This document shows, one piece after another, positions 2,378 through 31,876 of a DNA stretch of 52,046 nucleotides. Source of the DNA: Planctomycetota bacterium (lineage in GTDB: Bacteria; Planctomycetota; Planctomycetia; Planctomycetales; Planctomycetaceae); contig JAQCEJ010000031.1 in NCBI GenBank assembly GCA_027618475.1, forward strand, positions 1-52,046, written 5' to 3'. The position numbers were made by a program, and so were the translations under genes. Under the pieces are notes generated by a model. That model made no database searches. It had not been told where the DNA came from and saw nothing but the letters and a program-made list of their open reading frames with translations. Each line of letters begins with the position of its first letter. Position 1 is the first letter of the stretch.

Positions 2378-3676
2378 CTACAACGTCCATCCTTCGCGGT
2401 ACTCACGTTTGATGAACTGATCGGCCTCGGGGCAGTTCGGGGCTTGCATGGCGTCGGCGTCCCATTCGAGCCGTTTTTGTCCGGCGCGGTATGAGACGTT
2501 GCCGAGATGGCCGATCTCGGTGAGGATGACGCCGTAGGTGAACGGCGACATCGTGCGTGAGCCGGTTTTGATCGATTCGATCCATTCTTTGTGGTGGCCG
2601 ATCGAATCGGGGATCGTCTGGGCGATCGCTTTTTCTTCTTTACCGGTGTTCATGAAGACCTTGCGGGTGCCGTAGTCAGCAAGCAAGCGACCGTCTTCAC
2701 CTTCGAAGAGGACCGCCGAACCCTTGCCGTATTCTTCGGCTCCGTCGGGCATTCCGCCGCCGTGATGCCAGGTCATGTGGACGGCGGGTAGCAGTCCGCG
2801 AGCGGGGAACTCGTATTCGACTTTCAGCTTGCTCGGCGTGTCGTTGTCTCCCTCGTAATTTTTCGATCCCTCGGCGGTAATGACTTCGGGCAGCGTGAGG
2901 TTGAGCGCCCAGACCGGCAGGTCGACGTAATGGCAGACGAAGTCGGCGAGCGTTCCGCCACCGAAATCCCACCACCAGCGCCAATTGAAGTGGAAGCTCG
3001 ACTCGTCGTACGGACGATACGGAGCAGGGCCGAGCCAGAGATCGTAATGGACGTGCTTCGGCGGAGTCGATTCTTTGGACCGTTTACCGGGAGCGACCGT
3101 CCCGCCATGCCAGACATGGACACGGCGAATGGGGCCGATCACCCCTCCTTGAATCGCCTCGACCACTCGGCGATAGTTCGATTCGGAGTGAATCTGATTT
3201 CCCATTTGCGTCGGGACGCCGGCCTGGATTGCCAGATCGCGGAGCACGCGAGCTTCGTAGATCGAATGCGTCAGCGGCTTCTCGCAATACGTCGGCAATT
3301 TCTTGCGCAGCGCCGTCGCGACCGGAATGGCATGCATGTGATCGGGAGTGCTGACCACCACGCCGTCGAGATCGTTCATTTCGAGGAGGTCGAGACAGTT
3401 GTTGAATTTTTTCGCGTCGGGATAACTCGCTGCCGCCTTATCGAGCCGCATGTCGTCGATGTCGCACAAGGCGACGATGTTCTCGCTCGAAACGCCCGAG
3501 AGGTTCGAGCCGCCGCGTCCGTCGACGCCGATGACGCCCAGCCGCAATTTTTCGTTCGCGCTCGTGGTGTCGTCGGCGAGCAGAATACGCGAACTTAACA
3601 TTGAAGCGGCGGGAATCGCCGTCCCCGCGGCAAGCGCTTTGCGGATAAAGTCTCGGCGATTGACATGGCGTGACAT
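2378..3676 (-). CDS. Tat-exported GFO/IDH/MocA family oxidoreductase
   Basis: An NAD(P)-dependent oxidoreductase of the GFO/IDH/MocA family, expected to act on a sugar or inositol-like substrate. I chose the ATG at 3676 because it begins with a twin-arginine signal (N-R-R-D-F-I, residues 6-11) and an alanine-rich stretch, and is preceded by GAAAGGG. Upstream in-frame ATG/GTG codons would bury the signal. The Rossmann loop LGVIGVDGRGG lies near residues 46-56 and the family's CEKPL motif at about 131-135; the C-terminal half carries the typical WWWDFGGGTLADFVCHY stretch. Planctomycetes carry many such paralogues. The substrate cannot be named. It is transcribed away from the signalling gene upstream, with 118 bases between them. 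Confidence 0.9.
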   Translation of the reverse strand: MSRHVNRRDFIRKALAAGTAIPAASMLSSRILLADDTTSANEKLRLGVIGVDGRGGSNLSGVSSENIVALCDIDDMRLDKAAASYPDAKKFNNCLDLLEMNDLDGVVVSTPDHMHAIPVATALRKKLPTYCEKPLTHSIYEARVLRDLAIQAGVPTQMGNQIHSESNYRRVVEAIQGGVIGPIRRVHVWHGGTVAPGKRSKESTPPKHVHYDLWLGPAPYRPYDESSFHFNWRWWWDFGGGTLADFVCHYVDLPVWALNLTLPEVITAEGSKNYEGDNDTPSKLKVEYEFPARGLLPAVHMTWHHGGGMPDGAEEYGKGSAVLFEGEDGRLLADYGTRKVFMNTGKEEKAIAQTIPDSIGHHKEWIESIKTGSRTMSPFTYGVILTEIGHLGNVSYRAGQKRLEWDADAMQAPNCPEADQFIKREYREGWTL

Positions 3677-5676: not shown

Positions 5677-5836
5677 GATTCTTATGCGAGCTTTGGCAAA
5701 GTCGTGTCAACTTTTTGCGAATACCAGTGATAATGAAACCGGCACTTTGCCTTCCTTTTTCAATTCATTTTTCGATGGCGTGCCGATCGGCCTCAAGTTT
5801 CATCGCAACAGCGATCATCGAATACCGTCAGTCTTG

Positions 5837-18238: not shown

Positions 18239-19129
18239 ATGAGTACGTCTCCATTTTTCGACCCCGCCGGGCTGGCCCGCGTGGGAAATCTCGAATTGGT
18301 CGCCAAGCAGGTGGTGGAAGGTTTCCTCACCGGTCGGCATCGCAGTCCGTATCATGGATTCTCGGTCGAATATCTCGATCACCGATCGTATTCTCCCGGT
18401 GACGAAATTCGCTCGCTCGACTGGAAAGTTCTCGCGCGCACCAACAAGTATTACGTCAAGCTGTTCGAAGACGAAACCAATCTGCGGGCCTATATTCTTC
18501 TCGATTGCTCGAAATCGATGGAATTTCAAAGCGGCTCGCTCAGCAAGCTGGCGTACGGTTCGTATCTCGCCGCAGCGCTGACGTATCTGATGATCCGACA
18601 GAACGACGCCGTCGGACTGGTGCGGTTTGACACCGAACCGCGGCAGTTCATTGCGCCGCGGGCACATCCGACACAGTTCCGCCGCGTGCTCGACTCTCTC
18701 GACAATGCCAAGGCGGGAGGAGAAACCGACGTCGGCCTCGTGTTGCACAAAACGGCGGAGCGCATCAAACGCCGGGGACTGGTGATCGTGATCAGCGATC
18801 TGATCGACGACGAAGACAAAATCGTCAGCGGACTGCAACATTTCCGCCACGATCATCACGAAGTGATCGTGTTTCATATCATGGACGATGCCGAACTCAC
18901 GTTTCCGTACGATCGCATTACCCGGTTTCAAGACATGGAAGGGGCCGGCCGCGTCGTCGCGAACCCCAAAAGCCTGCGTGCCCGGTATCTCTCCCGCATC
19001 AAGGCATTCACCGAAAAACTGAAACACGACTGTTTCGAACGCCGCATCAGTTACAATCTGGTTAATACCAATCAACCGTACGCCGAGTTTCTGGCGGCGT
19101 ATCTCGATAAGCGTAAACGTATGGGATGA
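18239..19129 (+). CDS. DUF58 (VWA-like) protein
   Basis: A 296-residue DUF58 protein, the usual partner of MoxR ATPases. The family's YSPGDEIRSLDWKVLART motif is at about residues 55-75, and the VWA-like metal site DCSKS (DxSxS) is near residue 88, followed by the ISDLIDDE segment. No membrane helix is evident, so it is presumably cytoplasmic. It starts 54 bases after moxR. The next gene is separated by a 174-bp palindromic element rather than a short gap, which may alter expression of the genes downstream. Confidence 0.92.
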   Translation: MSTSPFFDPAGLARVGNLELVAKQVVEGFLTGRHRSPYHGFSVEYLDHRSYSPGDEIRSLDWKVLARTNKYYVKLFEDETNLRAYILLDCSKSMEFQSGSLSKLAYGSYLAAALTYLMIRQNDAVGLVRFDTEPRQFIAPRAHPTQFRRVLDSLDNAKAGGETDVGLVLHKTAERIKRRGLVIVISDLIDDEDKIVSGLQHFRHDHHEVIVFHIMDDAELTFPYDRITRFQDMEGAGRVVANPKSLRARYLSRIKAFTEKLKHDCFERRISYNLVNTNQPYAEFLAAYLDKRKRMG

Positions 19130-19137
19130 ATGGCGGT

Positions 19138-19311
19138 AAAATGTCGAATATCGAAATCCGAATGTCGAATCAATGACGAAGCTCGAAACCCGAATGGGAA
19201 TTTCGAATATCGTCCGATTCACACGTTTTATTTTTCCACCTTCGACATTTGGACATTCGTCATTCGGATTTGATTCAACATTCGGATTTCGACATTCAAC
19301 ATTCGACATTT
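19138..19311. repeat. MITE-like palindromic element, copy A
   Basis: A 174-bp element with perfect 11-bp terminal inverted repeats, AAATGTCGAAT at the left and ATTCGACATTT at the right. Long internal complementary stretches are built from GTCGAAT, GAAATCCGAATG and TGACGAA words. It lies inside the MoxR operon, starting nine bases after the DUF58 stop. It codes for nothing and can fold into a long imperfect hairpin. Two relatives are at 29541 and 30866. Confidence 0.75.
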
Positions 19312-19355
19312 AAAAAACCTCACCCCGAAGGCGATAAATATAAGCCCGGAGCGTC

Positions 19356-21716
19356 ATGGAATTCCTGCACGTTGGAATATTGACCTGGTTCCTGCCGATC
19401 GTGGCGATCCCTCTGGTTCTCCACCTGCTGACGTTGCATCGACTCAAGACGGTCGAACTGAGTACCTTTCGCTTTCTCTTCGACAGTTACGTACAACAGC
19501 GCCGAAAGATGAAATTTCTCGACGCCCTAATCGCGGCACTGCGGACACTGTTTCTTCTGCTCTTGCTGTTGGCGATCGCCCGACCGACCGTGCGGCATTG
19601 GGCCGGCCTCTTCGGTTCGGGAAGCGGTCGCGATATCGTCTTCATGTTCGACTGTTCGGCGAGCATGGAAACCGTGACAGACGGCATCGCCGCGATCGAC
19701 CGTGCGAAACACATCGCGACCACTATCCTTGCGCAGCTAAGTAACGACGACCGGGTGACCATCGTTCGCGTGACATCGCGGCCTCAGATTCTCAGCAGCC
19801 GTTTTACGGCCGACAGCGATTCGCTGCAGGAACAATTTTCCGGATTGAAAACCAGTCCCGCCCGCGGCAATCTCTTCGCGGCATTTCAACAACTTTTCAG
19901 CACCGAAGCCGATCCGCTGCTGCAACCGCAGATTTACCTGTTTACCGATGCTCAAGAAAGCGGTTGGCGGGAAATTCGCGAACAACCCTTACAAGGATTG
20001 TTCCCCGAGAAAACGAAACTTCTGCTGGTCGACGTCGGAGCAGGAAACGTCAACGACGCCAATCTGGCGATCGTCGGTCAGGCTCCGTCGCCGCATCATG
20101 CGATTGTCGGCTTGCCGGTTGTGTTGCGGCCGCGCGTCTCGAATTTTTCGACGACGACACCCAAAGACGTCTCGGTCAGCGTTCTTATCGATGACGAGGA
20201 GATCGCGCGCCGACGCATCACCGTTCCCGCCGGCGAAACGGTTGCGACCGATATTCTGTTTACGCCGCATCACGACGGCGTGCTCAAAGGTCGCTATCAG
20301 ATCGACGGTGATTCATTTCCCGTCGATGATTCGTTTCTGTTTACGATGGTCGTCGAACCGCGCGTCCGCGTGCTGCTCGTCAACGGCGTGCCGAGTGCCG
20401 ACCCGCTGATGAATGAGGGGCTCTACCTGCGTACGGCCATGACGACCGTACATCCCTTCGTCGCCGACTCGGCCGAAGCAAAACAAGATTCGCCAACCGC
20501 GAAAACCAATTCGTCGACGCCGAAAGAAATCTTCGCCGACGAAAAACGCCTCGCGCAGATTCTCGAAGTTCGCGAAATCCCCGAGGCGGAACTGACGCTC
20601 GATGTACTCGGTGATAGAAATGTCGTTCTGCTCGCAAACTGCGGCGGACTCAACGACCAACAGTTCGAGTGGTTGCGGAACTTCGTGTTCGACGGTGGTG
20701 GACTGCTGATCTTGCCGGGCGATAAAGTCTCGCCCGACATTTACAACCAGCGATTCTTTCCCGTCACGGGGGTTCCCGATCAATATCTGATTGGTGCGAC
20801 GTTGCTGCCGTCTGAAGGAGATCTCGCGCAAGCGATCACGTTTGCGAATTTCGCGTCGCTCGATCTGTCGCATCCGATTTTTGCGGTGTTCGATGTTCCC
20901 GATGCCCGCTATCTGACGAAGGTCAGTTTCTTCAAACGGTATCCACTCAAGCTCGTCGAAAAGCCGGGGGCGACATGGCCGCTGGCCGAACTCTCGACGG
21001 GAACCGCCGCTGTACTGGAGGGACGGCACGGCGACGGCCGGGTGATTCTCACCGGTTTTCCCGCGAATGCCCAGTGGTCGAATCTGCCGCTCAAACCCGA
21101 GTTCGTGCCGTGGCTGCTGCGCACGATCAGCCATATTCGCCAGCGGCCCGGTCTGGAAGGCCCTTCGGTCGTGACTGCCGACGGCGTCGCCGAATTTGCC
21201 TTGCCGCTGCAATGGACTCCTGCAAACGGCGACGTCACCGACACCGACGGCCGAACGCTGCCGCTGGAATTTCATCGCAGTACGTCAAGGCTGGCGGCGG
21301 CGTATCCCGAAACGTCGGTTAAAGGGTATTATACCGTTAAAGCCAGCGGAGGCCGCATCGAACAGTTTCGCGAAGATCAAGCGGCATTTGCCGTTAATCT
21401 CTCTCCTGAAGAATCGAATTTCACTGTCATCGACGAATCACAATTACGCGAATTGCTTCCCGATGTCGAACTTTCGTTTATCGATGCTTCGGCCGAAGCC
21501 CAGCAATTGCATGGGTCAATCGGCGAAGTGCGAGAAGTCTGGCGTCCGCTCATCTGGCTGACGTTCGTCATCATCGGAATCGAATTTTTGCTGGCAACAC
21601 TCAAAGGACAACGAGCCGAAGACGAACAAGGGCCGACCATGACCGACCGCATGAAAGATGTCGCCAGCGGTGCCTGGGTGGGACGGATGACGGGTGCCGG
21701 AATTGAAGATCATTAG
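19356..21716 (+). CDS. BatA-domain / VWA membrane protein
   Basis: A 786-residue membrane protein. The N-terminus is a BatA-type anchor: two helices (about 8-28 and 57-76) around LHRLKTVELSTFRFLFDSYVQQRRKMKFLDALIAALRT. A VWA domain follows with the MIDAS start FDCSAS at 98-103. The middle is an extracytoplasmic region with immunoglobulin-like strands and a class I amidotransferase-like fold (ILPGDKVSPDIYNQRFFPV), and a single helix near 728-750 closes the protein. The start follows CCGGAG by four bases. It shares architecture with the VWA protein two genes on. Role inferred: client of MoxR in a periplasmic or envelope complex. Confidence 0.88.
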   Translation: MEFLHVGILTWFLPIVAIPLVLHLLTLHRLKTVELSTFRFLFDSYVQQRRKMKFLDALIAALRTLFLLLLLLAIARPTVRHWAGLFGSGSGRDIVFMFDCSASMETVTDGIAAIDRAKHIATTILAQLSNDDRVTIVRVTSRPQILSSRFTADSDSLQEQFSGLKTSPARGNLFAAFQQLFSTEADPLLQPQIYLFTDAQESGWREIREQPLQGLFPEKTKLLLVDVGAGNVNDANLAIVGQAPSPHHAIVGLPVVLRPRVSNFSTTTPKDVSVSVLIDDEEIARRRITVPAGETVATDILFTPHHDGVLKGRYQIDGDSFPVDDSFLFTMVVEPRVRVLLVNGVPSADPLMNEGLYLRTAMTTVHPFVADSAEAKQDSPTAKTNSSTPKEIFADEKRLAQILEVREIPEAELTLDVLGDRNVVLLANCGGLNDQQFEWLRNFVFDGGGLLILPGDKVSPDIYNQRFFPVTGVPDQYLIGATLLPSEGDLAQAITFANFASLDLSHPIFAVFDVPDARYLTKVSFFKRYPLKLVEKPGATWPLAELSTGTAAVLEGRHGDGRVILTGFPANAQWSNLPLKPEFVPWLLRTISHIRQRPGLEGPSVVTADGVAEFALPLQWTPANGDVTDTDGRTLPLEFHRSTSRLAAAYPETSVKGYYTVKASGGRIEQFREDQAAFAVNLSPEESNFTVIDESQLRELLPDVELSFIDASAEAQQLHGSIGEVREVWRPLIWLTFVIIGIEFLLATLKGQRAEDEQGPTMTDRMKDVASGAWVGRMTGAGIEDH

Positions 21717-21718
21717 AA

Positions 21719-21756
21719 CGGGTTTCACAACCCGGTTGGTGACAGAACGTACGTTC
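21719..21756. other. Small hairpin and 12-bp palindrome between operon genes
   Basis: CGGGTT-TCAC-AACCCG (21719-21734) begins two bases after the BatA-protein stop, followed by the perfect palindrome GAACGTACGTTC (21745-21756). There is no U tract, so it is unlikely to terminate; it may be a processing or binding site. Confidence 0.4.
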
Positions 21757-21828
21757 AATTGCCTTAAAATATTCGTCGTCCAGAGGGTTATGAAACTGTT
21801 TACAGCACATTATCACAGGGAATAAACG

Positions 21829-24800
21829 ATGCGCCGTAATCCACTCGATGATTTCGACAATGCGTCCGCGACACCGGCACCGGAACCCGCTCACATCGAG
21901 CCCTCCGTCACCGAACCGCATTCAGGAGTGATCGCGTCGCTCATCGAAACGTCGCGGCGCTGGCTTCGTTCGGGCTGGGTCGCAACGGGAGCGGGAATCA
22001 CCGTCGGCTTGCTCGCGTCTTTGCTGCTCATTGCAGGCTTGCTCGATCTGATCCTCGTGTTTTGGCCGTCGTTTCGATTAATGGCGCTGCTCGCCGTGCT
22101 GATCCCGACGTTTCTCGCGCTAACCTGGGGCGTACTTCGACCGTTGTTTCGCCGTATCACCAATCGTGCCGTCGCCCGTCGGATCGAAGCACAACTTCCG
22201 GGAATCCACGATCGACTGGTAAGCTGCGTCGACCTCGAATCGACCACCCATTCCAAACCGGTTTCGGCATCGTTCTATAAGAAATTGCTGACAGAAGCGA
22301 TTGCGCGCATTCAGGATTTTCAACCCAAAAAACTGCTGGATCGCGAACATCTCAAACGGGCGACAATTTTTGCCGGAACGAGCCTCCTCTCGTTTCTCAT
22401 CGGAATGCAGGTCTTCTCCGACCGTCTGCCGACGGCACTGGCGCGAATTCTTTCCCCATTCGCCGATATTCCTCCCGCTTCGGGTGTTGTCTACACGGTC
22501 GATCCGGGAAACCAGAAAGTGCTGCGCGGAAACGAAGTCGCTTTTACCGTCACGGTTGAGAAAGGTGCCCCCGATGATCTGTCGCTCGAAATCGAAGTCA
22601 CCGAAGGGGACGAAAAAGGGAAAACCTTAAAGTACGACCTGATCTCGCAAAGCGACTCGGTCTGGACATTTCGCCTTCCCGGGTTTGCGTCGTCGTTCGA
22701 TTACCGCGTCCGCGGCGGGGGCACATGGAGCAAGCTGTATCACATCAAGATGCTCGATCGTCCGCAAATCGTGGCATTGCAGACGAAACTCACCTATCCG
22801 TCCTATATGGGTGAAATTCCCGTAGAATCAGGCCCCCCTGATGTCGCGGATGTTACCGGACCAATCGACAGTCAGGTCGAAATTCAGGTGCAGGTCGACG
22901 GCGATCCGACGGTCGGCCAGATCGAACTGTTGCAGTCGCGTGTCAAATCGGTCGCCGTCACCAACCGACCAGAGCGAACGTGGATCGCCACTCAGATTCC
23001 CGAAGCAGCACTGGCCGAGGGAACATGGGAATGGCTTCCCGAACATCAGGGCCGCCCCGCGCATCGTCATCCCCCAGCAGATGGACATACCTATCATCAA
23101 TTCGTTAACGCGCCGATCGGCTTTCGCATCAAGTCGGGTGAAGTGCTGTTTGCCGACGTGTTTCTCGATTCTGAAAATCCTCCGTTGGCCGTCATGCTTC
23201 AATTTCACGATGGGCAATCGTGGGAACACCGTGCTTACTGGGGGAAGGACGTTTTTACGTTGGGTCAGCCCGATACCGAAAGCCGACTCGGTGCAGGGGA
23301 ACTTCCCGAAACGGGCAAATGGGTTCGGTTGGAGATCCCGGCATCGCTGCTCGCACTGGAGGGACGCTCGCTGCACGGCGTCAGCTTTTCGCAATTCGGC
23401 GGTTCGACCTGGTGGAGCCACACCGGCACCGTTCCGCCGGCCGTCACCCACGTCGATGAACTCGTCGTCACCGAAACGATTCCGATGAACTTCGTCGGGC
23501 CGGTCGCGGAACCAGCACGCGCGAATGCAAACGACGCGACGTCGGTCCCATCGTTACAACTCTGGAGCGGACGTTTTCCTCTGAAGCGAGACGGCTGGTA
23601 TCGCGTTGAACTTCGCAACGAACTTGGTGCACCGAATCCAAGAATGAAAGAAGCCAAACTGACGGCCATTCCCGATCGCCCGCCGCAGGTGGTCGTCGAT
23701 CGTCCGGGAGCCGATCTGATTTTGAGTGTCCCGCAAAAAGTCCCCTTATCGATCGCCGCGTTTGATGATTTCGGTCTCGCCGACCTCGTCCTGGCCGTAC
23801 AAATTGGCGAAACGGGCGGATTCAACGGTCGACCGGTCAAGCATTACGAATCGCTGCAAAAAGCCGATGCGACGATCGTGGTGCTCGATCTCGTTGCCGA
23901 GAAACTCAAAGAAGGAGACGTGCTGAAATATCGCGTCGAAGCTCGCGACCGAAAAGGGCAAAGCGCGCAGACTCAGGATTATATCATTCGTATCCAGCAG
24001 GATCCGCAAGCGGCCGATCAGCAATTGGCCAACGTCGAAAAGAACGAGGAAAACTTCCGCCGTCAACTCGCCCAATTGATCGAAAATCAGACCGCTGTCC
24101 AGGAGGAAATGGAAAAACTAGAAGCTAAATACGAACCCCTTTCTGAAAAACTCGAAGCCGCGGCGAAAGAAGCCGAACAAAAAACCGAGGAAACGGCCAA
24201 ACAACAGGCGAAGGAAAATCCGCAAGCCCCGCCTCCCGCACCCGAACCTCCTCAACTCGATGACGAAACAAAACAGCAACTTGCCGAAATGAAAGCCGAG
24301 CTGGCGGCGGTCAATCAGAAAGAACAGCAGAACGCGCTCGCCGCCCAGCAGTTGGAAAATGCGGCACAGGCCCTGGCGCAGGAACTGAACCAACAACAAC
24401 TGATTCCCCCCGAACTCCAGCAGGAAATGCAGCGCGTCGCCGATTCGTTTCACGATCTGGCGGTCGAACCGATTAACGAATTAAACGCGCAAATGCAGGA
24501 GAACGCCAAAGCCGAAGAGACGAACCCGCAACTCGAACAACTCACCGAACAGGGAGAAACCGTCGCCCGCAATCTCGAAGCCTTGCAAAACCGTATGGAT
24601 GCGATCGCAGCGGCTCAGCAGCAAAGTAAAGAAGATGTGCTCGCAGCTATGGAGCAGTTCCAGCGCGAATTGACTCGGCAGAATGCTCAACTGTCAGCCG
24701 ATGAACTTGCCGATCTCAAGGAGAAAATCGCCGAGATGCGGGCCGCCATGCAGGATCTTCTGCAAGATCAGGAAGAACTCATGGAGATCACTCCCGCTGT

Positions 24801-25818
24801 TCCCGATCTGCTCGTGGAAGACCTCGCCGAAAAACAGGACGATCTCGACGTCGACATCGACGAAAGTCTCGCCGATGCCCGACAACTCCTGGAGACCGAA
24901 GAATACCGCAAGTTGAAACAACAACAGGATCCCAACGCCGCGGAACAAGACGACGACTCGGAAACGCCCCCGGACACACAAATGGAATCGTCGGACAAAG
25001 AAAACGACGAACCGATGTTTCAACCCGCGCTCGGCGGCCCCAAGCCGATGGTCGATCCTAAGCTGGCTGAAAAGCCAATGCCGGCAGAGAAGTCAGAGCC
25101 AAAACCGAGCGATCCTGCACCGGCGAACGACGATTCCCCCGCCCCCGAAGCCAATAAGAAAAGCGATGCACAAGCTGATGCGGCAGCAATGAGAACGGCA
25201 CTCGAACAGCAACAGCGTCAGCAAGCCAAAGCGTTGAGCGAAGCCGAACAAAGTCTCGGCAGCGACGAACAAACCGTCGACGAGCTACTCAACAATCTCG
25301 AACAACAACTCGCCGCAGCGATGACGCAAATCGAACCGAACAAGTCCTCATCGCCAGAACCGATCGAACCGGACGCTGCTGATGAAACGGAAGCACCGGC
25401 TACCGCCATGGAAATCCCACTCGATAAACTCTTGCCGCAATTGACGGAAGAACAGTCTCAACAACTCGCTGAAATGTTGAAGTCCGAAACAATGAAAAAA
25501 GCGATGGCGATGGCCGCACGCAGCAAGCAGGCCGATCAGAAGAAACAACAAAAACAGCAGCAACCTCCAAACGCTTCACAACCGCTCCCTTCAGAGAACC
25601 CGGAAGGCAATCTGTTGGGGACGCTTCCCGGCGAACAGATACTGCGGATAGAACTGCTGAATCTCGACCCAGCCTCTCGAAAAGTGATTCTCAACATGCA
25701 ACCGTCGCAGCGAGAAGAAATTCTGCAGGGACTCCGCGAGGATGGCCCCGAAGGGTATCGGGAATACATCCGCGATTACTTCGAACGGTTGACGAAAGTC
25801 AAATCGGAGGCGAAATAA
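21829..25818 (+). CDS. Giant DUF4175-like membrane coiled-coil protein
   Basis: A 1329-residue protein. The N-terminus has two membrane helices (about 50-72 and 80-103) and a third near 180-198, an arrangement resembling DUF4175 proteins found with MoxR operons. Then come beta-rich extracytoplasmic segments. One of them (about 405-550), with LFADVFLDSENPPLAVMLQF and FSQFGGSTWWSHTG, looks like an inserted carbohydrate-binding-type sandwich. From about 730 to 1025 the protein is a long Gln/Glu-rich coiled coil, then a Pro/Ala/Glu-rich linker to about 1250 and a short conserved tail. The ATG follows AGGGA. A spacer-like scaffold working with the two VWA proteins is my inference. Confidence 0.82.
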   Translation: MRRNPLDDFDNASATPAPEPAHIEPSVTEPHSGVIASLIETSRRWLRSGWVATGAGITVGLLASLLLIAGLLDLILVFWPSFRLMALLAVLIPTFLALTWGVLRPLFRRITNRAVARRIEAQLPGIHDRLVSCVDLESTTHSKPVSASFYKKLLTEAIARIQDFQPKKLLDREHLKRATIFAGTSLLSFLIGMQVFSDRLPTALARILSPFADIPPASGVVYTVDPGNQKVLRGNEVAFTVTVEKGAPDDLSLEIEVTEGDEKGKTLKYDLISQSDSVWTFRLPGFASSFDYRVRGGGTWSKLYHIKMLDRPQIVALQTKLTYPSYMGEIPVESGPPDVADVTGPIDSQVEIQVQVDGDPTVGQIELLQSRVKSVAVTNRPERTWIATQIPEAALAEGTWEWLPEHQGRPAHRHPPADGHTYHQFVNAPIGFRIKSGEVLFADVFLDSENPPLAVMLQFHDGQSWEHRAYWGKDVFTLGQPDTESRLGAGELPETGKWVRLEIPASLLALEGRSLHGVSFSQFGGSTWWSHTGTVPPAVTHVDELVVTETIPMNFVGPVAEPARANANDATSVPSLQLWSGRFPLKRDGWYRVELRNELGAPNPRMKEAKLTAIPDRPPQVVVDRPGADLILSVPQKVPLSIAAFDDFGLADLVLAVQIGETGGFNGRPVKHYESLQKADATIVVLDLVAEKLKEGDVLKYRVEARDRKGQSAQTQDYIIRIQQDPQAADQQLANVEKNEENFRRQLAQLIENQTAVQEEMEKLEAKYEPLSEKLEAAAKEAEQKTEETAKQQAKENPQAPPPAPEPPQLDDETKQQLAEMKAELAAVNQKEQQNALAAQQLENAAQALAQELNQQQLIPPELQQEMQRVADSFHDLAVEPINELNAQMQENAKAEETNPQLEQLTEQGETVARNLEALQNRMDAIAAAQQQSKEDVLAAMEQFQRELTRQNAQLSADELADLKEKIAEMRAAMQDLLQDQEELMEITPAVPDLLVEDLAEKQDDLDVDIDESLADARQLLETEEYRKLKQQQDPNAAEQDDDSETPPDTQMESSDKENDEPMFQPALGGPKPMVDPKLAEKPMPAEKSEPKPSDPAPANDDSPAPEANKKSDAQADAAAMRTALEQQQRQQAKALSEAEQSLGSDEQTVDELLNNLEQQLAAAMTQIEPNKSSSPEPIEPDAADETEAPATAMEIPLDKLLPQLTEEQSQQLAEMLKSETMKKAMAMAARSKQADQKKQQKQQQPPNASQPLPSENPEGNLLGTLPGEQILRIELLNLDPASRKVILNMQPSQREEILQGLREDGPEGYREYIRDYFERLTKVKSEAK

Positions 25819-25913
25819 GTATTCGACGTCAGAGCGGTTGAAACATTGTATTCTGCGACTTGATCTTCATCACGGCGAAAGATAACTCAACAGACCGAAT
25901 CGACAGCGCACCT

Positions 25914-28310
25914 ATGTGGTCCTGGTTTCTCAAAATCATTGGCGTCTCACCCGATGTGCTCACCCACCTCGAACGGGCCGAACTCGTCTGGCAACGGCCG
26001 GCCATTTTGTGGCTCGGACTGCTCCTGATCGGACCGGCGGGATATTTCATTTACCGCCGGCAACTGGTCAATCTTCCGACGGTCGCATCGAAATGGCGGA
26101 ACATCTTAACCGCGACCCGCGTGACGACACTGCTGATTCTGATCGCCATTCTTGCCGGGCCATACCTGCGAATCGACCACAAATTCGAACGCAAGCCGAT
26201 TGTTGCCGTGCTGTTCGACCGCTCGCAAAGCATGAATCTTCCGGCAGGACCGTTCGAAACCGATGACGAATCGCTCGAAGCGGCGACGGGCCTCGGTCAT
26301 GACCCGACGCAGCCGATCGATGAATCCGCAAAAAAAACGATCGATGAAAAAAGCCGCGCCGAACTGGCACATGCGTTGTTTCTCTCCGCGCGGGAAGACT
26401 GGCTCAAACAACTGGATGATCAATTCGAAGTTCGCTTTTATTCGGTCGCTCGCGAAACCGAACCTCTGGCCGATCCCTTTTCCGAACAGGGGAACACCAC
26501 GACAATCGCTGCCGAGGGTCCGGCGACGCACATCGGCACGGCGGTCAATCATGTGCTCGAAGAGGCCGCAGGACAAGCCGTCGCGGCGATGGTTCTCTTC
26601 AGCGACGGACAAAACACGGGGGGATTTTCTCCGAGCGAATCGATCGCATCGGCCAATCGGGCGAAGACGCCTTTGTTTCCTGTCCTTGTCGGCAGCCGAA
26701 AGCGATTGCAGGATCTTTCGATCGTCGATGTTTACACGTCGGGCCAGGTTTCTGTCGGCGATACCGTTCGCGTCGCCGTAACGATCGAATCGCAAGGTTT
26801 CGACGGCAGGCCGATTACGGTTGAACTCCGCGAAGGAGAAAAAACGCTCGACGCGAAAGAATTGACGCTCTCCAGTTCCGAACAGCAGCAACTCGAACTG
26901 ATTTTCGTCGCGACCGAACCGGGACTGCGTTACCTTACTGTTGTCGTGCCGTCGTTTCCCGAAGAACCCGAAGCGCTACGCACGAACAACACCGACGTAG
27001 CCATCGTCCGTGTCAGCGAAGATAAACTGAAACTCCTGATCGTCGAAGGGCTCCCCCGCTGGGACTTTCGATTCTTGAAGAATGCCGTCAAACGCGATCA
27101 CGGCCTCGCCGGTGCAACGTCCGACGAAGTCGACATTCTGCTTGAAGCCGAATGGCGAAGACTTTCTACCGAAGAACAGCAGACGAAACTCGAGCAGGTC
27201 GTCGAGTCTCTTGCCGATTATCATACCGTCGTTCTGGGTGACGTTTCGCCAGAGTTGCTCAAAGAGTCGTGGCGTCCGTTACTCATCGAATCGGTGCAGA
27301 ATCAGGGACTGGGACTGATCGTCGCGGCGGGCCCGAATTTTATGCCGCAGGCGTTTGATTCGAGTTTTCAGGAACTCCTTCCCGTACAACTCCGTCCGAA
27401 AACGCAGGGGACCGAAGCCCCGGCCTATAAGCCGTTTCGTGTGGAAGTCTCTCCCCCGGGTTTGATTCACGATGCCATGCGATTGTACGACGATCCCGCA
27501 CGCAACCAGTTCGTCTGGACGCGAATGCCCCCGTTTTACTGGTCGGCGGCGGCGGAGCGAGCCTCCCCGGCGGCAACCGTCCTCGCCTGGAATCCCACCG
27601 TTGAAAACCGTTTCGGCAAGATGCCTTTGATCGCCTACCATTACGCCGGAGAGGGCAAAGTCGCATTCGTCGGCACCGATTCAACCTGGACATGGCGACA
27701 GAATGTGGGAGATCGTTATTTTTACCGTTTCTGGGGACAGATGATTCGCTTCGTGGCGCGTAAAGAGACGTCGGGGAAAAAAATCGATTCGCTGGAAGTC
27801 CGTCCCCTGCGTGCCCAGCCGGGCGAAAAAGCGGAAATCGAACTCTTCGCTTATAACACCGACAACTCGCCTCGCTCTGACGCCAGTTTGGAAATTACCG
27901 CCGTAGGACCAAACGGCAACGAAACTGTCGAATTGCTCCCCGACGTCGCTCACGAAGGACGCTACGTCGGTCAATATGCTCCGAAGCAGATCGGCGAACA
28001 TCGGTTGCTGTATCAACCGGCGTCGACGAAAAAACCGGTCGAAGCGAAACTCCGTGTGATTCCCTCGGCAGTCGAACTCCGCGATCCGAATGTCAATCGA
28101 CCGTTCCTTGACAATCTCGCACAGGCAACCGGCGGTAAACTTTTGAAAATGAACGAACTCCACGACATGCCGGAACTGCTGACGGGGAAACCTCAGCTCG
28201 TAGAAATCCACCGTGAAGCGACGATCTGGGATAACTGGCTGACACTTTTGCTGCTGGTGATTGTGTACTCTATCGACGTCGGTATCCGCCGTTTGATGGG
28301 ACTGTCGTAA
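25914..28310 (+). CDS. VWA / amidotransferase-like membrane protein
   Basis: About 798 residues. Two N-terminal helices (about 28-48 and 64-84) are followed by a VWA domain whose MIDAS begins FDRSQS near residue 99. Next is a beta-sandwich region, then a class I glutamine-amidotransferase-like fold without an evident catalytic cysteine (LLIVEGLPRWDFRFLKNA, LIVAAGPNFMP). A final helix at about 772-790 closes the protein. The ATG at 25914 is preferred; a TTG at 25860 extends the frame but gives an untypical N-terminus. It parallels the BatA-domain protein of the same operon, as if the two arose by duplication and form a pair. Confidence 0.87.
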   Translation: MWSWFLKIIGVSPDVLTHLERAELVWQRPAILWLGLLLIGPAGYFIYRRQLVNLPTVASKWRNILTATRVTTLLILIAILAGPYLRIDHKFERKPIVAVLFDRSQSMNLPAGPFETDDESLEAATGLGHDPTQPIDESAKKTIDEKSRAELAHALFLSAREDWLKQLDDQFEVRFYSVARETEPLADPFSEQGNTTTIAAEGPATHIGTAVNHVLEEAAGQAVAAMVLFSDGQNTGGFSPSESIASANRAKTPLFPVLVGSRKRLQDLSIVDVYTSGQVSVGDTVRVAVTIESQGFDGRPITVELREGEKTLDAKELTLSSSEQQQLELIFVATEPGLRYLTVVVPSFPEEPEALRTNNTDVAIVRVSEDKLKLLIVEGLPRWDFRFLKNAVKRDHGLAGATSDEVDILLEAEWRRLSTEEQQTKLEQVVESLADYHTVVLGDVSPELLKESWRPLLIESVQNQGLGLIVAAGPNFMPQAFDSSFQELLPVQLRPKTQGTEAPAYKPFRVEVSPPGLIHDAMRLYDDPARNQFVWTRMPPFYWSAAAERASPAATVLAWNPTVENRFGKMPLIAYHYAGEGKVAFVGTDSTWTWRQNVGDRYFYRFWGQMIRFVARKETSGKKIDSLEVRPLRAQPGEKAEIELFAYNTDNSPRSDASLEITAVGPNGNETVELLPDVAHEGRYVGQYAPKQIGEHRLLYQPASTKKPVEAKLRVIPSAVELRDPNVNRPFLDNLAQATGGKLLKMNELHDMPELLTGKPQLVEIHREATIWDNWLTLLLLVIVYSIDVGIRRLMGLS

Positions 28311-28378
28311 CGTCCGTAAGCAGGTCTCGTCGTCATAGGCAGACGGAAATCGACAACGAAAACAACAAGGCGATGTTT

Positions 28379-29512
28379 ATGATCCACCGAATTCCCGGCA
28401 CAATCAGAATTCGCACGATAGCAATTGTTGCCAGCTTCGCGGCGTTCTTTGTTGTTCTGCCTCGACACTCAACGCTTACCGATCCTGCGTCTCTCTATTC
28501 GCAAGACGAACCGGCGGCGGCCGATGCCCCCACCACCCCCGCAGAGACGGCGATTCCTTTGACCGAATCCAAAGTCGTCGATCGCGTGACCTCGGCACTC
28601 GACCGGTCGATCGAGTACCTCGCAAATCATCAACGTCCCGATGGATCGTGGGACAACTGCAATGCCGGCAATGCCCTCTCGTTATTGGCGATGTTGGGAC
28701 GCGGTCATGTCCCCGGTCGCGGACCTTATCGCGACATACTCTCCAAAGGACAGGATTATTTGCTCAAGACTCAGAACGATCAGGGCGTGTTCATCTCGAA
28801 GCGCACCGCCGGTTCGGGGCCCATGTACGAACACGCCCTCTGTACGCTCGCCTGCGCCGAACTGTACGGCATGGATCCCAGTCCGGTTCTCGAAGAAAAA
28901 CTGCGCAAGGCGGTCGCTGTGATTATCTCGTCGCAGTCTCCCGCCGGGGGATGGAGATATCATCCGAATCCGAACGATCAGGATTTGAGCGTTTCGGTTA
29001 TGCAGATTGTCGCTCTGCGGGCGGCAAATAACGCCGAAATTCCCGTACCCGAAACGACGATCGAAAAGGCCATTCAATATGTCCGTTCGTGTGCGCACGC
29101 CAACGGCGGCTTTGGATACCAGAGCCCGGCACAAACGCCGCAGACCTCGGCGGCGGGGGTCGTTTCGCTGCAACTGCTCGGGCAGTATACCGATCCATCG
29201 GTCGATAAAGGTCTCGTCTATCTTTCGGCCATACCGATCGAGTGGTCGAATACTGGGGTGCAGTATTTTTACTACTTTCATTACTACGCCATTCAGGCGC
29301 AGTATCAGGCAGGAGGAAAGTGGTGGAACGACTGGCATCCACGCATCCGCGAACTGCTGCTCGAACACCAGAAATCCGACGGCAGCTGGGAGGTTCCCGC
29401 CGGCACGTCCGAACAAGCCAACGTCGTCGGCGACAACCGCATCTATTGGACGGCGATGTCCTCGCTGATTCTCGAAATCTACATGCACTATCTGCCGGCG
29501 TATCAAAGGTGA
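28379..29512 (+). CDS. Secreted prenyltransferase/squalene-oxidase repeat protein
   Basis: About 377 residues with a signal peptide or anchor (IAIVASFAAFFVVL) and an alpha/alpha-toroid built of prenyltransferase/squalene-oxidase repeats (NHQRPDGSWDN, TQNDQGVF, SQSPAGGWRYHPN, NGGFGYQSP, HQKSDGSWEV). It lacks the DXDD acid of cyclases, so it is probably a binding protein rather than a terpene cyclase. The AAGG at 28367-28370 fits the second ATG (28379) better than the first (28373). It ends the MoxR operon. The substrate or partner is unknown. Confidence 0.85.
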   Translation: MIHRIPGTIRIRTIAIVASFAAFFVVLPRHSTLTDPASLYSQDEPAAADAPTTPAETAIPLTESKVVDRVTSALDRSIEYLANHQRPDGSWDNCNAGNALSLLAMLGRGHVPGRGPYRDILSKGQDYLLKTQNDQGVFISKRTAGSGPMYEHALCTLACAELYGMDPSPVLEEKLRKAVAVIISSQSPAGGWRYHPNPNDQDLSVSVMQIVALRAANNAEIPVPETTIEKAIQYVRSCAHANGGFGYQSPAQTPQTSAAGVVSLQLLGQYTDPSVDKGLVYLSAIPIEWSNTGVQYFYYFHYYAIQAQYQAGGKWWNDWHPRIRELLLEHQKSDGSWEVPAGTSEQANVVGDNRIYWTAMSSLILEIYMHYLPAYQR

Positions 29513-29540
29513 CAGACAGGCTTGTTGCCCCATGCAGTCG

Positions 29541-29677
29541 GAATGACGAATGTCGAAGCCCCAATGTCGAATCAAATACAAATGACAAATGTCCAAATGT
29601 CGAAAAAAGGTGAGCGATCATAAAACATTTCGGGCTTCGTCATTGATTCGACATTCGGATTTCGAAATTCGTCATTC
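29541..29677. repeat. MITE-like palindromic element, copy B
   Basis: A 137-bp element with perfect 10-bp terminal inverted repeats GAATGACGAA / TTCGTCATTC. Both outer edges are flanked by AGTCG, a possible 5-bp target-site duplication. It lies between two convergent genes, so it may also serve as a bidirectional 3' structure. Confidence 0.7.
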
Positions 29678-29690
29678 AGTCGGAATCAAA

Positions 29691-30830
29691 TCATCCCAGC
29701 TCCCGCGCCGCCGTCGACGCATCGGCGTATTCCTTGAGCTGATCCTCATCGAGTTCCACCCCCAGCCCCGGGGCTTCCGGAACTCTGGCTGCCGCCGGAC
29801 CTAAGTCGAGCGGTTTGGTCAGCAAATCGACTTCGTGATACAACGGCCCGATCAGATCCGCCGGATACCTCTCGCTGTCGATCGTCTTCGAGGCGGCGGC
29901 GACGTGCAGCATCGCGGCGGTTCCCACGCCGAGTTCCAGATTGCTGCCGATCGAACAGCAAATCCCCGCTGATTTCGCGACGGCGGCGATTTCCAGCGTC
30001 GACGCGATACCGCCGTGCTTTCCTGGATACACGCTCAAGATGTCGACGGCTCCGGCACGGGTCAGTTGCCATGCATCATTCAGCGTGAAGATGCTCTCAT
30101 CGGCCATGATCGGAATACGACTCATCCGTCGCAGTTCGGCCAGCGCGTTCACATCGGTTTGCGGAATCGGCTGTTCGACGAAAAAGACGTCGAGTTCGGC
30201 AAGGCGGTCGAGCATGTTCCGAGCGGTCGGCAAATCCCAGCCGCAGTTGACGTCGACGCCGATTGGAATATTCGGCCCGGCGAGCTCGCGTACCGCTTTG
30301 ACTCGCTGCAAATCGGCTTCGGGATCGGTCCCCACTTTCACCTTCAGGCATTTGACGCCCCAATCGAGAAACTGTTTCGCGAGTTCGAGAGCCTTGGGAA
30401 CCGGAAACGCGCCAACGACCATCTTGATCGGAATCTCATCGCGGACTTTGCCACCAAGCAGTTGATAGACCGGCACGCCGTGCACCTTGCCGCAGAGATC
30501 CCACAACGCCATCTCGACGGCGGCTTTGGTGAACGGATTCTGCACGCAACAGCGTTCGATCGGCAGACGCAAGCGGTTGAAATCGAGCGGATTCTGTCCG
30601 ATGAGCAGCGGAGCCATCAGCCCCTCGACCACCGCTCGGCACCCCTGGCTCGTTTCACCGCTCCATCTTGCCGCGAGTGTCGCCTCACCGATGCCGACGA
30701 GACCTTCGTCGGTTTTCAGTTTGATGATGACATACGGCGAGACGACATGCTCGCCATGCGCGGTCTTCGTCATCAGTCCCTTTTTAAGAGGAACAAGCAC
30801 GGGGAGGGTTTCGACGTGAGTGATTTTCAT
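29691..30830 (-). CDS. Mandelate racemase / muconate lactonizing (enolase superfamily) enzyme
   Basis: A 379-residue enzyme of the enolase superfamily, muconate-lactonizing-enzyme subgroup. The catalytic lysines are in LKVKVG (K163 and K165). The metal ligands are D193 (GVDVN), E219 (FVEQP) and D244 (ADES), and the second-side lysine is K271 (YPGKHGG). Members cyclise or racemise carboxylates (cycloisomerase, dipeptide epimerase, o-succinylbenzoate synthase), and I cannot choose among these. The ATG at 30830 has AGGA upstream; an extension to 30899 would read into a repeat. It is followed on the same strand by nothing and preceded by an amidohydrolase across a palindromic element, perhaps one catabolic unit with the MFS transporter. 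Confidence 0.88.
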   Translation of the reverse strand: MKITHVETLPVLVPLKKGLMTKTAHGEHVVSPYVIIKLKTDEGLVGIGEATLAARWSGETSQGCRAVVEGLMAPLLIGQNPLDFNRLRLPIERCCVQNPFTKAAVEMALWDLCGKVHGVPVYQLLGGKVRDEIPIKMVVGAFPVPKALELAKQFLDWGVKCLKVKVGTDPEADLQRVKAVRELAGPNIPIGVDVNCGWDLPTARNMLDRLAELDVFFVEQPIPQTDVNALAELRRMSRIPIMADESIFTLNDAWQLTRAGAVDILSVYPGKHGGIASTLEIAAVAKSAGICCSIGSNLELGVGTAAMLHVAAASKTIDSERYPADLIGPLYHEVDLLTKPLDLGPAAARVPEAPGLGVELDEDQLKEYADASTAARELG

Positions 30831-30865
30831 CAATCGTATTCCTGGAGTGAATGCGGTGAGGTGCA

Positions 30866-30995
30866 AATGTCGAATGTCGAAGCACAAATGTCGAATCAAA
30901 TCCGAATGACCATATGTCGAATGACGAAGGTGTTCGGTCTTTGGTCATTTGTGCTTCGTCATTGATTCGACATTCGGATTTCGACATTCGACATT
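30866..30995. repeat. MITE-like palindromic element, copy C
   Basis: A 130-bp element with perfect 16-bp terminal inverted repeats AATGTCGAATGTCGAA / TTCGACATTCGACATT. Its right end abuts the amidohydrolase gene: position 30995 is both the last base of the repeat and the last base of that gene's TGA stop codon. No target duplication is obvious. Confidence 0.75.
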
Positions 30996-31876
30996 CAAAA
31001 CTCGATAACTTGCTTCCAGTTTTCGTAAATGATCTTGTGAATCGCCTCTTCGGGGAATTTTGGAAACTTCGTTCCCTCAACGATGTCGTTGACTTTGCCT
31101 AAACCGGAAATGACTTGCTCGGGCGTCGCCGACGGGAAGTCGGAACCGTAGATCAGTTTGTGTTCGACGCCATATTCGAGTGCCGTGATGAATGCCTGCC
31201 AGTGACGCCACGGCCGATAATGAAGAGCCGAGACGTTAGCATACAGATTCGGATGCTTGCGGATGAAGACGATGCACTCGGTCTCCCACGGATGCCCCAT
31301 ATGAGAGATGATAATCCGCAGATCGGGACAGGCGATTGCGATATCCTCGAGAGCGATCGGATTCGACCATTTCAACGGCCCGGTGCGAACGAACGACGTT
31401 CCCTGATGAATGTTGATCGGAATCCCGAGTTTCTCGACCTCGCGAAATAAGGGGAGATGACGAGGATCCTGCGGATTCCAGTTCTGATAAATCGGTGAAA
31501 CTTTCAAGCCTTTCAGGCCGAGATCGTTTACATAATACCGCAATTGAGAAATGCAGTCGGGATCGTTGGGATCGACCGAACACCAGCCCTGAAACCGGTC
31601 GGAGTGCTCTTTCACGAACTTGGCGATCAATTCTTGATCGGCGTTAATCCCGCAATAAGGGGCTTTGATGCCGAAGACGATCACCTTGTCGCAATTCTTT
31701 GTCGCTTCCAGCAATTGCTTGGGATTCGAATCGAAGTTGTGCTTCGACTCGGCCGCGAAATGAACGTCGGGCGTCATCCGCATCTTGGCTTTCTTGGCCT
31801 CCCACGCAAATTCCACGAATTCTTCCGAATAGTGATCCGGATACCACATCAAATTCGTATGCGTATCAACCAGCAT
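30995..31876 (-). CDS. Amidohydrolase-2 family metal-dependent hydrolase
   Basis: A 293-residue TIM-barrel hydrolase of the amidohydrolase-2 group (decarboxylases and lactone hydrolases). It begins MLVDTHTN, so the second histidine of the usual DxHxH metal motif is replaced by asparagine. The later ligands are visible in INIHQG, IIISHMGHPWE and YGSDFP. The ATG follows GAGGGAGA. The stop codon touches a palindromic element. Its neighbours are the enolase-superfamily enzyme and the MFS transporter on the same strand, which suggests a catabolic cluster for a carboxylic acid or lactone. The activity is not determined. Confidence 0.85.
   Translation of the reverse strand: MLVDTHTNLMWYPDHYSEEFVEFAWEAKKAKMRMTPDVHFAAESKHNFDSNPKQLLEATKNCDKVIVFGIKAPYCGINADQELIAKFVKEHSDRFQGWCSVDPNDPDCISQLRYYVNDLGLKGLKVSPIYQNWNPQDPRHLPLFREVEKLGIPINIHQGTSFVRTGPLKWSNPIALEDIAIACPDLRIIISHMGHPWETECIVFIRKHPNLYANVSALHYRPWRHWQAFITALEYGVEHKLIYGSDFPSATPEQVISGLGKVNDIVEGTKFPKFPEEAIHKIIYENWKQVIEF

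Follow-up and report, generated by a model that had tools for sequence, protein, structure and literature searches.

We examined a 52,046-nt stretch of DNA from a Planctomycetota bacterium (assembly GCA_027618475.1, contig JAQCEJ010000031.1, positions 1–52,046 of the forward strand; hereafter the window) and found that three palindromic elements in it, copies A, B and C, belong to one family of intergenic repeats built from 7-nt words. We put at about even the chance that this family is a dispersed non-coding heptad repeat that comes to lie behind genes and acquires a role at the level of its sequence. An earlier sequence-only reading of the window had proposed that the three copies form a single repeat family without coding capacity, and our analysis supports that proposal.

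All three palindromes were found where that reading had placed them, to within one base. Copy A (19139–19311, plus strand) runs from a P arm on the left (~19140–19187) through a unique centre to a Q arm on the right (~19256–19311), the order PQ; the two arm types are defined below. Copies B (29541–29677) and C (30866–30995), both on the minus strand, have the order QP, with Q arms on the left (29541–29604 and 30866–30928) and P arms on the right (29629–29677 and 30948–30995). Perfect terminal repeats of 11, 10 and 16 bp had been reported for A, B and C. Those of copy A (19139–19149/19301–19311, 11 bp) and copy C (AATGTCGAATGTCGAA and its complement, 16 bp) were borne out, and that of copy B is 11 bp rather than 10 (GAATGACGAAT/ATTCGTCATTC). 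The words GTCGAAT and TGACGAA, said to be common to the copies, were indeed present across them.

The copies follow a single plan of two inverted arms, ~50–65 nt each, round a short centre, giving elements of ~130–230 bp. Read from the outer edge inward, an arm consists of AATGWCG (the W letter being mainly A or T), AATGTCG, AAATCCG or AAGCNCG, AATGWCG, a linker and more 7-nt words; the linker is ATCA in the source genome and AAAG, AAGG or ATGA in other genomes. A period of 7 was visible in the column profile of 366 arms, in which AA and CG are nearly fixed and enclose three looser letters, the profile being sharpened by the choice of these arms for their likeness to the family core. No alignment of the centres across copies was possible. 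Scanning the window against 4227 Rfam families gave no match at gathering scores.

The three elements are far above chance. In the source genome (5.93 Mb, 218 contigs), the search with a terminal sequence that had been suggested as a check returned 114 matches to AATGTCGAATGTCGAA at ≤2 mismatches, and the reversed control had no match. Blastn with copy A against the same genome gave 90 matches, the best apart from the self-match having an E value of 1e-22; in this first look, 40 of 82 candidates were scored. The arm cluster was present in 54 of the 55 stretches of this genome fetched around matches. Single arms also occur beside the two-arm elements, many of them within a larger repeat mosaic close to contig ends: at L012–L025, L027, L029, L036, L037 and L050, single Q-type arms sit in a mosaic of GGCCGCAGGCCGGATGAGGGT... 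and CCCGGACACAAAGCTGTCCGGG... repeats, often near the end of the contig. The elements also gave strong predicted RNA folds, with z scores of −6.0 (A, plus strand), −7.3 (B, plus strand) and −8.4 and −7.1 (C, plus and minus strands), and none of the shuffles folded equally well; folds of this strength are what any pair of arms from the family would give.

The two ends of an element differ. In the source genome, the P arm has an extra heptad, TGACGAA, after the linker, and the Q arm is without it. This genome holds 24 two-arm elements (26 under the looser rule used for the arm-pair comparison described below). A fixed rule classified both arms in 11 of the 24, and all 11 paired a P with a Q arm, a result that shuffles equalled in 44 and 59 of 20000 trials. 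By contig strand, six of them were PQ and five QP, a balance that means only that elements are present in both orientations. Since the rule was drawn from the source genome, the metagenome-assembled genome (MAG) JALHLM provided an independent test, and there 15 of 18 classified elements were P/Q, with shuffles doing as well in 65 and 95 of 20000. Small sets from other genomes gave P/Q shares of 2/3 (JAFGPV), 2/3 (JAHWKJ), 2/2 (JAKPHF) and 1/1 (JAUCQB). Copies in the source genome and in JALHLM are therefore inherited whole, each having a distinct left and right end. Elsewhere, at locus L119, two copies in inverted orientation, ~1 kb from each other (1017–1096 and 2104–2183), have a centre in common and differ in the variable letters of their words; the common centre suggests unit-wise copying.

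The elements lie mostly behind stop codons. Copy A starts 10 nt past the stop codon of a DUF58 gene (18239–19129, plus strand; Pfam DUF58 and gene call), copy B occupies the gap between two convergent genes, whose stop codons are 29 and 14 nt away, and the right edge of copy C touches the TGA stop of an amidohydrolase gene (30995–31876, minus strand; Pfam Amidohydro_2 and gene call). The DUF58 and amidohydrolase genes are outside the elements, and their stop codons are the landing places. The 24 elements of the source genome are all intergenic: tandem genes enclose 11 and 9 of them and convergent genes 4, and none lies between divergent genes, compared with 19 divergent among 123 spacers of at least 100 nt; gene calls here came from a simple purpose-made gene finder. 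We then pooled elements from the source genome, genus g16 and named GTDB loci, keeping out loci from other searches; retraining of the gene finder shifted one element of the source genome, giving classes of 12, 9 and 3 in the pool. Of the 138 pooled elements, we set aside 15 that lay at the end of a locus and 2 that lay within genes, which left 121 with both neighbours. The neighbours were oriented ++ in 52 cases, −− in 37, +− in 20 and −+ in 12, compared with 71 divergent among 365 element-free spacers; JAQGHS contributes 5 of the 12 divergent elements. For the 89 tandem cases, the median distance was 11 nt to the upstream stop codon and 53 nt to the next start. Forty-five elements lay within 12 nt of the stop or overlapped it and 15 lay within 12 nt of the start, and the stop side was the closer one in 68 cases and the start side in 20. 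At positions 766–928 of L086, from an Opitutaceae MAG, an arm apparently lies inside a coding sequence, with in-frame read-through judged by eye; we take the host sequence to be hemF from its motifs.

To see how such sites look in relatives, we compared the loci of copies A and C. We searched 150 family genomes for the racemase gene that separates copies B and C and recovered 30 loci, the source included. Ten relatives have the amidohydrolase gene directly before the racemase, and all ten spacers are without a heptad element. The amidohydrolase of L303 ends on the same residue as that of the source genome, in which the TGA marks the beginning of copy C. The amidohydrolase–racemase spacer of L303 holds a different palindrome, of the CACGGCTC type, where the source genome has copy C, which suggests that unrelated palindromes replace one another behind the same gene. 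At the site of copy A, the order DUF58 then BatA is kept in six relatives (68–76% identity), and five of them are without the element, three with gaps of 6–13 nt; in the sixth, L347, the DUF58 stop codon is likewise followed by an element, but one of its own that is made of other words. Three more DUF58 orthologues in this comparison have no BatA in the locus. In the related genus g16, two of four species have an arm behind the amidohydrolase stop codon (present in G482 and G501, absent from G518 and G015). We read this presence and absence among relatives as repeated gain. By these comparisons, copies A and C were gained in the spacer behind the gene's stop codon, the empty sites being defined at the level of genes only, as exact junctions are unreadable at these distances.

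Consistent with a role at the level of sequence, the arms are maintained in g16 where species have a site in common. We fetched 57 stretches from g16 for holding arms, and nine sites carry an element in two to four species. Over 21 arm comparisons, some with a species in common and with the left arm of L374 excluded, same-site arms were identical at 679 of 781 bases (87%), an upper figure because sites whose arms have decayed in one species escape detection. In the 4 of 21 comparisons in which the arm was not the matched one in both species, 128 of 149 bases were identical. Same-side arms of different sites agreed at 5746 of 7600 bases (75.6%). Codon positions 1, 2 and 3 were 86.4, 91.7 and 55.8% identical in seven g16 locus pairs (3127 codons), and the centres at shared sites were 48.2% identical, against 43.7% when shuffled. 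By this comparison, g16 arms are held about as well as first codon positions, and the centre between them drifts. The two arms of a copy did not match each other better than arms of different copies in any of three genome sets (0.753 within copies versus 0.747 between copies for 26 elements of the source genome, 0.680 versus 0.704 for 45 elements of g16, and 0.869 versus 0.874 for 18 elements of JALHLM). We rejected a maintained hairpin on this lack of covariation; sequence rather than pairing is therefore what is kept.

The origin proposed by the sequence-only reading was a miniature inverted-repeat transposable element (MITE), in its classical form derived by deletion from a DDE transposon, bounded by terminal inverted repeats, flanked by a short target duplication and mobilised in trans. 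Such an element would explain the terminal inverted repeats, the high copy number, the lack of coding capacity and the lineage-specific gain, and AGTCG does stand on either side of copy B, within a longer match, CAGTCGGAAT. As a target duplication, however, it is an isolated and untypical case: direct repeats of 2–10 nt were not enriched in the flanks of 174 elements from many genomes (1089 tests of length and offset, best z 2.9). The sequence-only reading had named two findings that would refute it, a lack of empty sites and a lack of duplications at other copies: the latter is what we observed and counts against it, whereas empty sites do exist in relatives. The centres differ between copies, unlike the remains of one transposon's interior. 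We recognised no transposase among the 14 largest clusters of neighbouring open reading frames (ORFs), whose partial translations were inspected by eye with no family search and whose genes look ordinary; nor did we recognise in these clusters a full-length transposon with the same ends, although whole genomes were not scanned for one. With no target duplication, no shared centre and no recognised transposase, the elements are not MITEs in the usual sense, and we consider a classical MITE origin improbable. Missing target duplications would fit a single-strand process, as for a repetitive extragenic palindromic (REP)-like element that folds single-stranded and is inserted without duplication by a Y1 or REP-associated tyrosine transposase (RAYT) encoded elsewhere. 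Y1_Tnp genes were present in all 28 named arm-bearing genomes, with 14 in the source genome, but they were about as common in family genomes without arms (25 of 29) as in those with arms (16 of 17). Of 44 Y1_Tnp loci, only 3 had an arm within 1.5 kb, in each case on a single side, and the arms lack the covariation expected of a recognised hairpin. Given the similar frequency without arms and the loci unflanked by them, we did not tie Y1_Tnp to the elements as a partner, and we regard this explanation as unlikely.

Two further explanations were considered. An immobile host regulatory sequence, either a 3′-end hairpin or a binding array, might arise and be kept at gene ends by selection; it would account for the position behind stop codons, the conservation of arms at shared sites and the strong folds. 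It would not predict presence and absence between close relatives, the joint inheritance of P and Q ends or a range of 0 to 81 core matches within a single genus, g31, and pairing is not maintained; we judge it rather unlikely. Alternatively, heptamers could expand by slippage, through the polymerase's grip on its template, with inversion by template switching; slippage for heptamers was proposed by Mrazek 2007, as cited in PMC4679880. Self-similarity runs in the fetched GTDB loci peak at lag 7 (230, versus 110 at lag 14 and 3–54 at the other lags from 4 to 15), and other heptad words form arrays too. The lag counts are biased, the loci having been fetched through arms, and slippage would not alone yield identical 25- to 40-mers in several phyla or two fixed, different ends. 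We therefore think it very unlikely as an account of this family; it may hold for other heptad words.

The family itself occurs in records named for five phyla. The exact 25-mer TTCGWCATTCGGATTTCGWCATTCG occurs in at least 109 stretches of GTDB genomes, and the record titles among the matches listed name Planctomycetota, Verrucomicrobiota, Chloroflexi, Patescibacteria and Omnitrophota. Among these listed matches, the cultivated carriers are Lacipirellula limnantheis and Brevifollis gellanilyticus, and nearly all others are MAGs. The longest exact stretches in common with Planctomycetota loci were at least 40 nt for Chloroflexi, at least 36 nt for Verrucomicrobiota and at least 30 nt each for Patescibacteria and Omnitrophota. 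All of the 28 genomes examined, each picked for holding a match, had core matches at ≤2 mismatches (5–360 per genome), and the reversed control had none in every one. Within Planctomycetota the distribution is patchy (12 of 392 genomes at ≤1 mismatch and 12 of 59 at ≤2, the source genome included in both), and the genomes of g31 had 28, 68, 81 and 0 core matches. Three IMG/VR contigs carry the exact core. Blastn searches of plasmids and phages gave no match, a result that counts for little because the low-complexity filter may hide heptad queries.

If the family is a dispersed repeat that has gained a role, a trans-acting enzyme would multiply its copies inside each genome and leave target sites unduplicated, for which a single-strand or replication-coupled copying process would fit. 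The family would also have passed between phyla, and its arms would persist since a DNA- or RNA-binding factor recognises the 7-nt words, either where genes end or within transcripts. Several points weigh against this account. The spread across phyla is supported mostly by MAGs, and the nearness to stop codons may partly reflect selection against insertions near starts. Maintenance was measured at sites found through recognisable arms, which only 4 of the 21 comparisons escape. The pairing of P with Q is not general, as all classified elements were P/P in JAQGHS (7/7) and CAMAVF (2/2), and in the mixed remainder only 1 of 4 classifiable elements was P/Q. No moving enzyme was found among the neighbouring ORF clusters or in the Y1_Tnp class, and no reading factor emerged.

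Other heptads form arrays as well. In the window itself, positions 2344–2376 hold an array of AATTGAT/AATTGAC on the minus strand, 2 nt past the stop codon of a minus-strand gene (2378–3676). Arrays of AGCTATC, ACTGACC, TTTTCAG, GGATACA and ACAAGCT words occur at L101, L107, L108, L124, L131, L164, L257 and other loci, some as inverted pairs and some nested round AATGACG arms; the list of such runs has 113 entries, collected with a loose filter that also admitted some AATGAC-type runs. The idea that heptads bring stop codons on the gene-facing strand was dropped, as the few other-word arrays inspected by eye had stops on either strand. A broader and doubtful possibility is a cross-phylum system of DNA words, in which an element of 7-nt words without a transposase of its own would pass from phylum to phylum, settle behind stop codons and be kept word by word by a widely conserved cellular factor that reads the 7-nt spacing in DNA or RNA, with AGCTNNC, ACTGANN, CTCGACN and other sets as its dialects.

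Short intergenic repeats are often regarded as inert transposon relics. Here, constant arms and scrambled centres at sites common to related species make it possible to separate the upkeep of sequence from the upkeep of base pairing, and g31, with 0 to 81 core matches per species, offers a natural experiment. A full-text search of the open-licence literature for six arm sequences, together with term searches, returned no paper with these arms.

The nearest known system is that of the TAACTGA repeats of Beggiatoaceae, Cyanobacteria and Bacteroidetes (MacGregor 2015, PMC4679880), for which horizontal spread is suggested and the mechanism is not evident. Both systems have a 7-nt unit, are mostly intergenic, are patchy over distant phyla and mix in related words. 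They differ in that the words here are AATGWCG, AAATCCG and AAGCNCG rather than TAACTGA, that the TAACTGA repeats are almost only direct (one indirect set among 169, with 2–6 copies per set in the main genome), whereas the elements here have two inverted arms, and that the former stand mostly just before start codons and the latter mostly behind stop codons (PMC4679880). Should the present family move across phyla with no transposase linked to it, a question left over from the TAACTGA repeats would be raised anew: by what route arrays of heptamers are dispersed, and by what they are read.

Two other groups of repeats are similar in behaviour. According to PMC3733652, the REP superfamilies GTAG and CGTC also comprise many intergenic palindromic copies in many phyla, and in the CGTC class, too, the repeat flanks no transposase gene, but those repeats are tagged stem-loops of 20–40 bp, with stems of 8–9 bp in the CGTC class. 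The elements here, by contrast, are ~130–230 bp long, built from heptads and provided with a unique centre. The interior of the enterobacterial repetitive intergenic consensus (ERIC) is conserved, whereas the centres here differ between copies, and the two are set apart by description, not by sequence. Like ERIC and other enterobacterial units, which are described as MITE-like intergenic palindromes of ~100–170 bp (PMC2759123, PMC2229807), the elements have no transposase gene. On this comparison, they appear to behave like intergenic repeats of the REP and ERIC type and to be composed like TAACTGA repeats, and we would file them in neither group.

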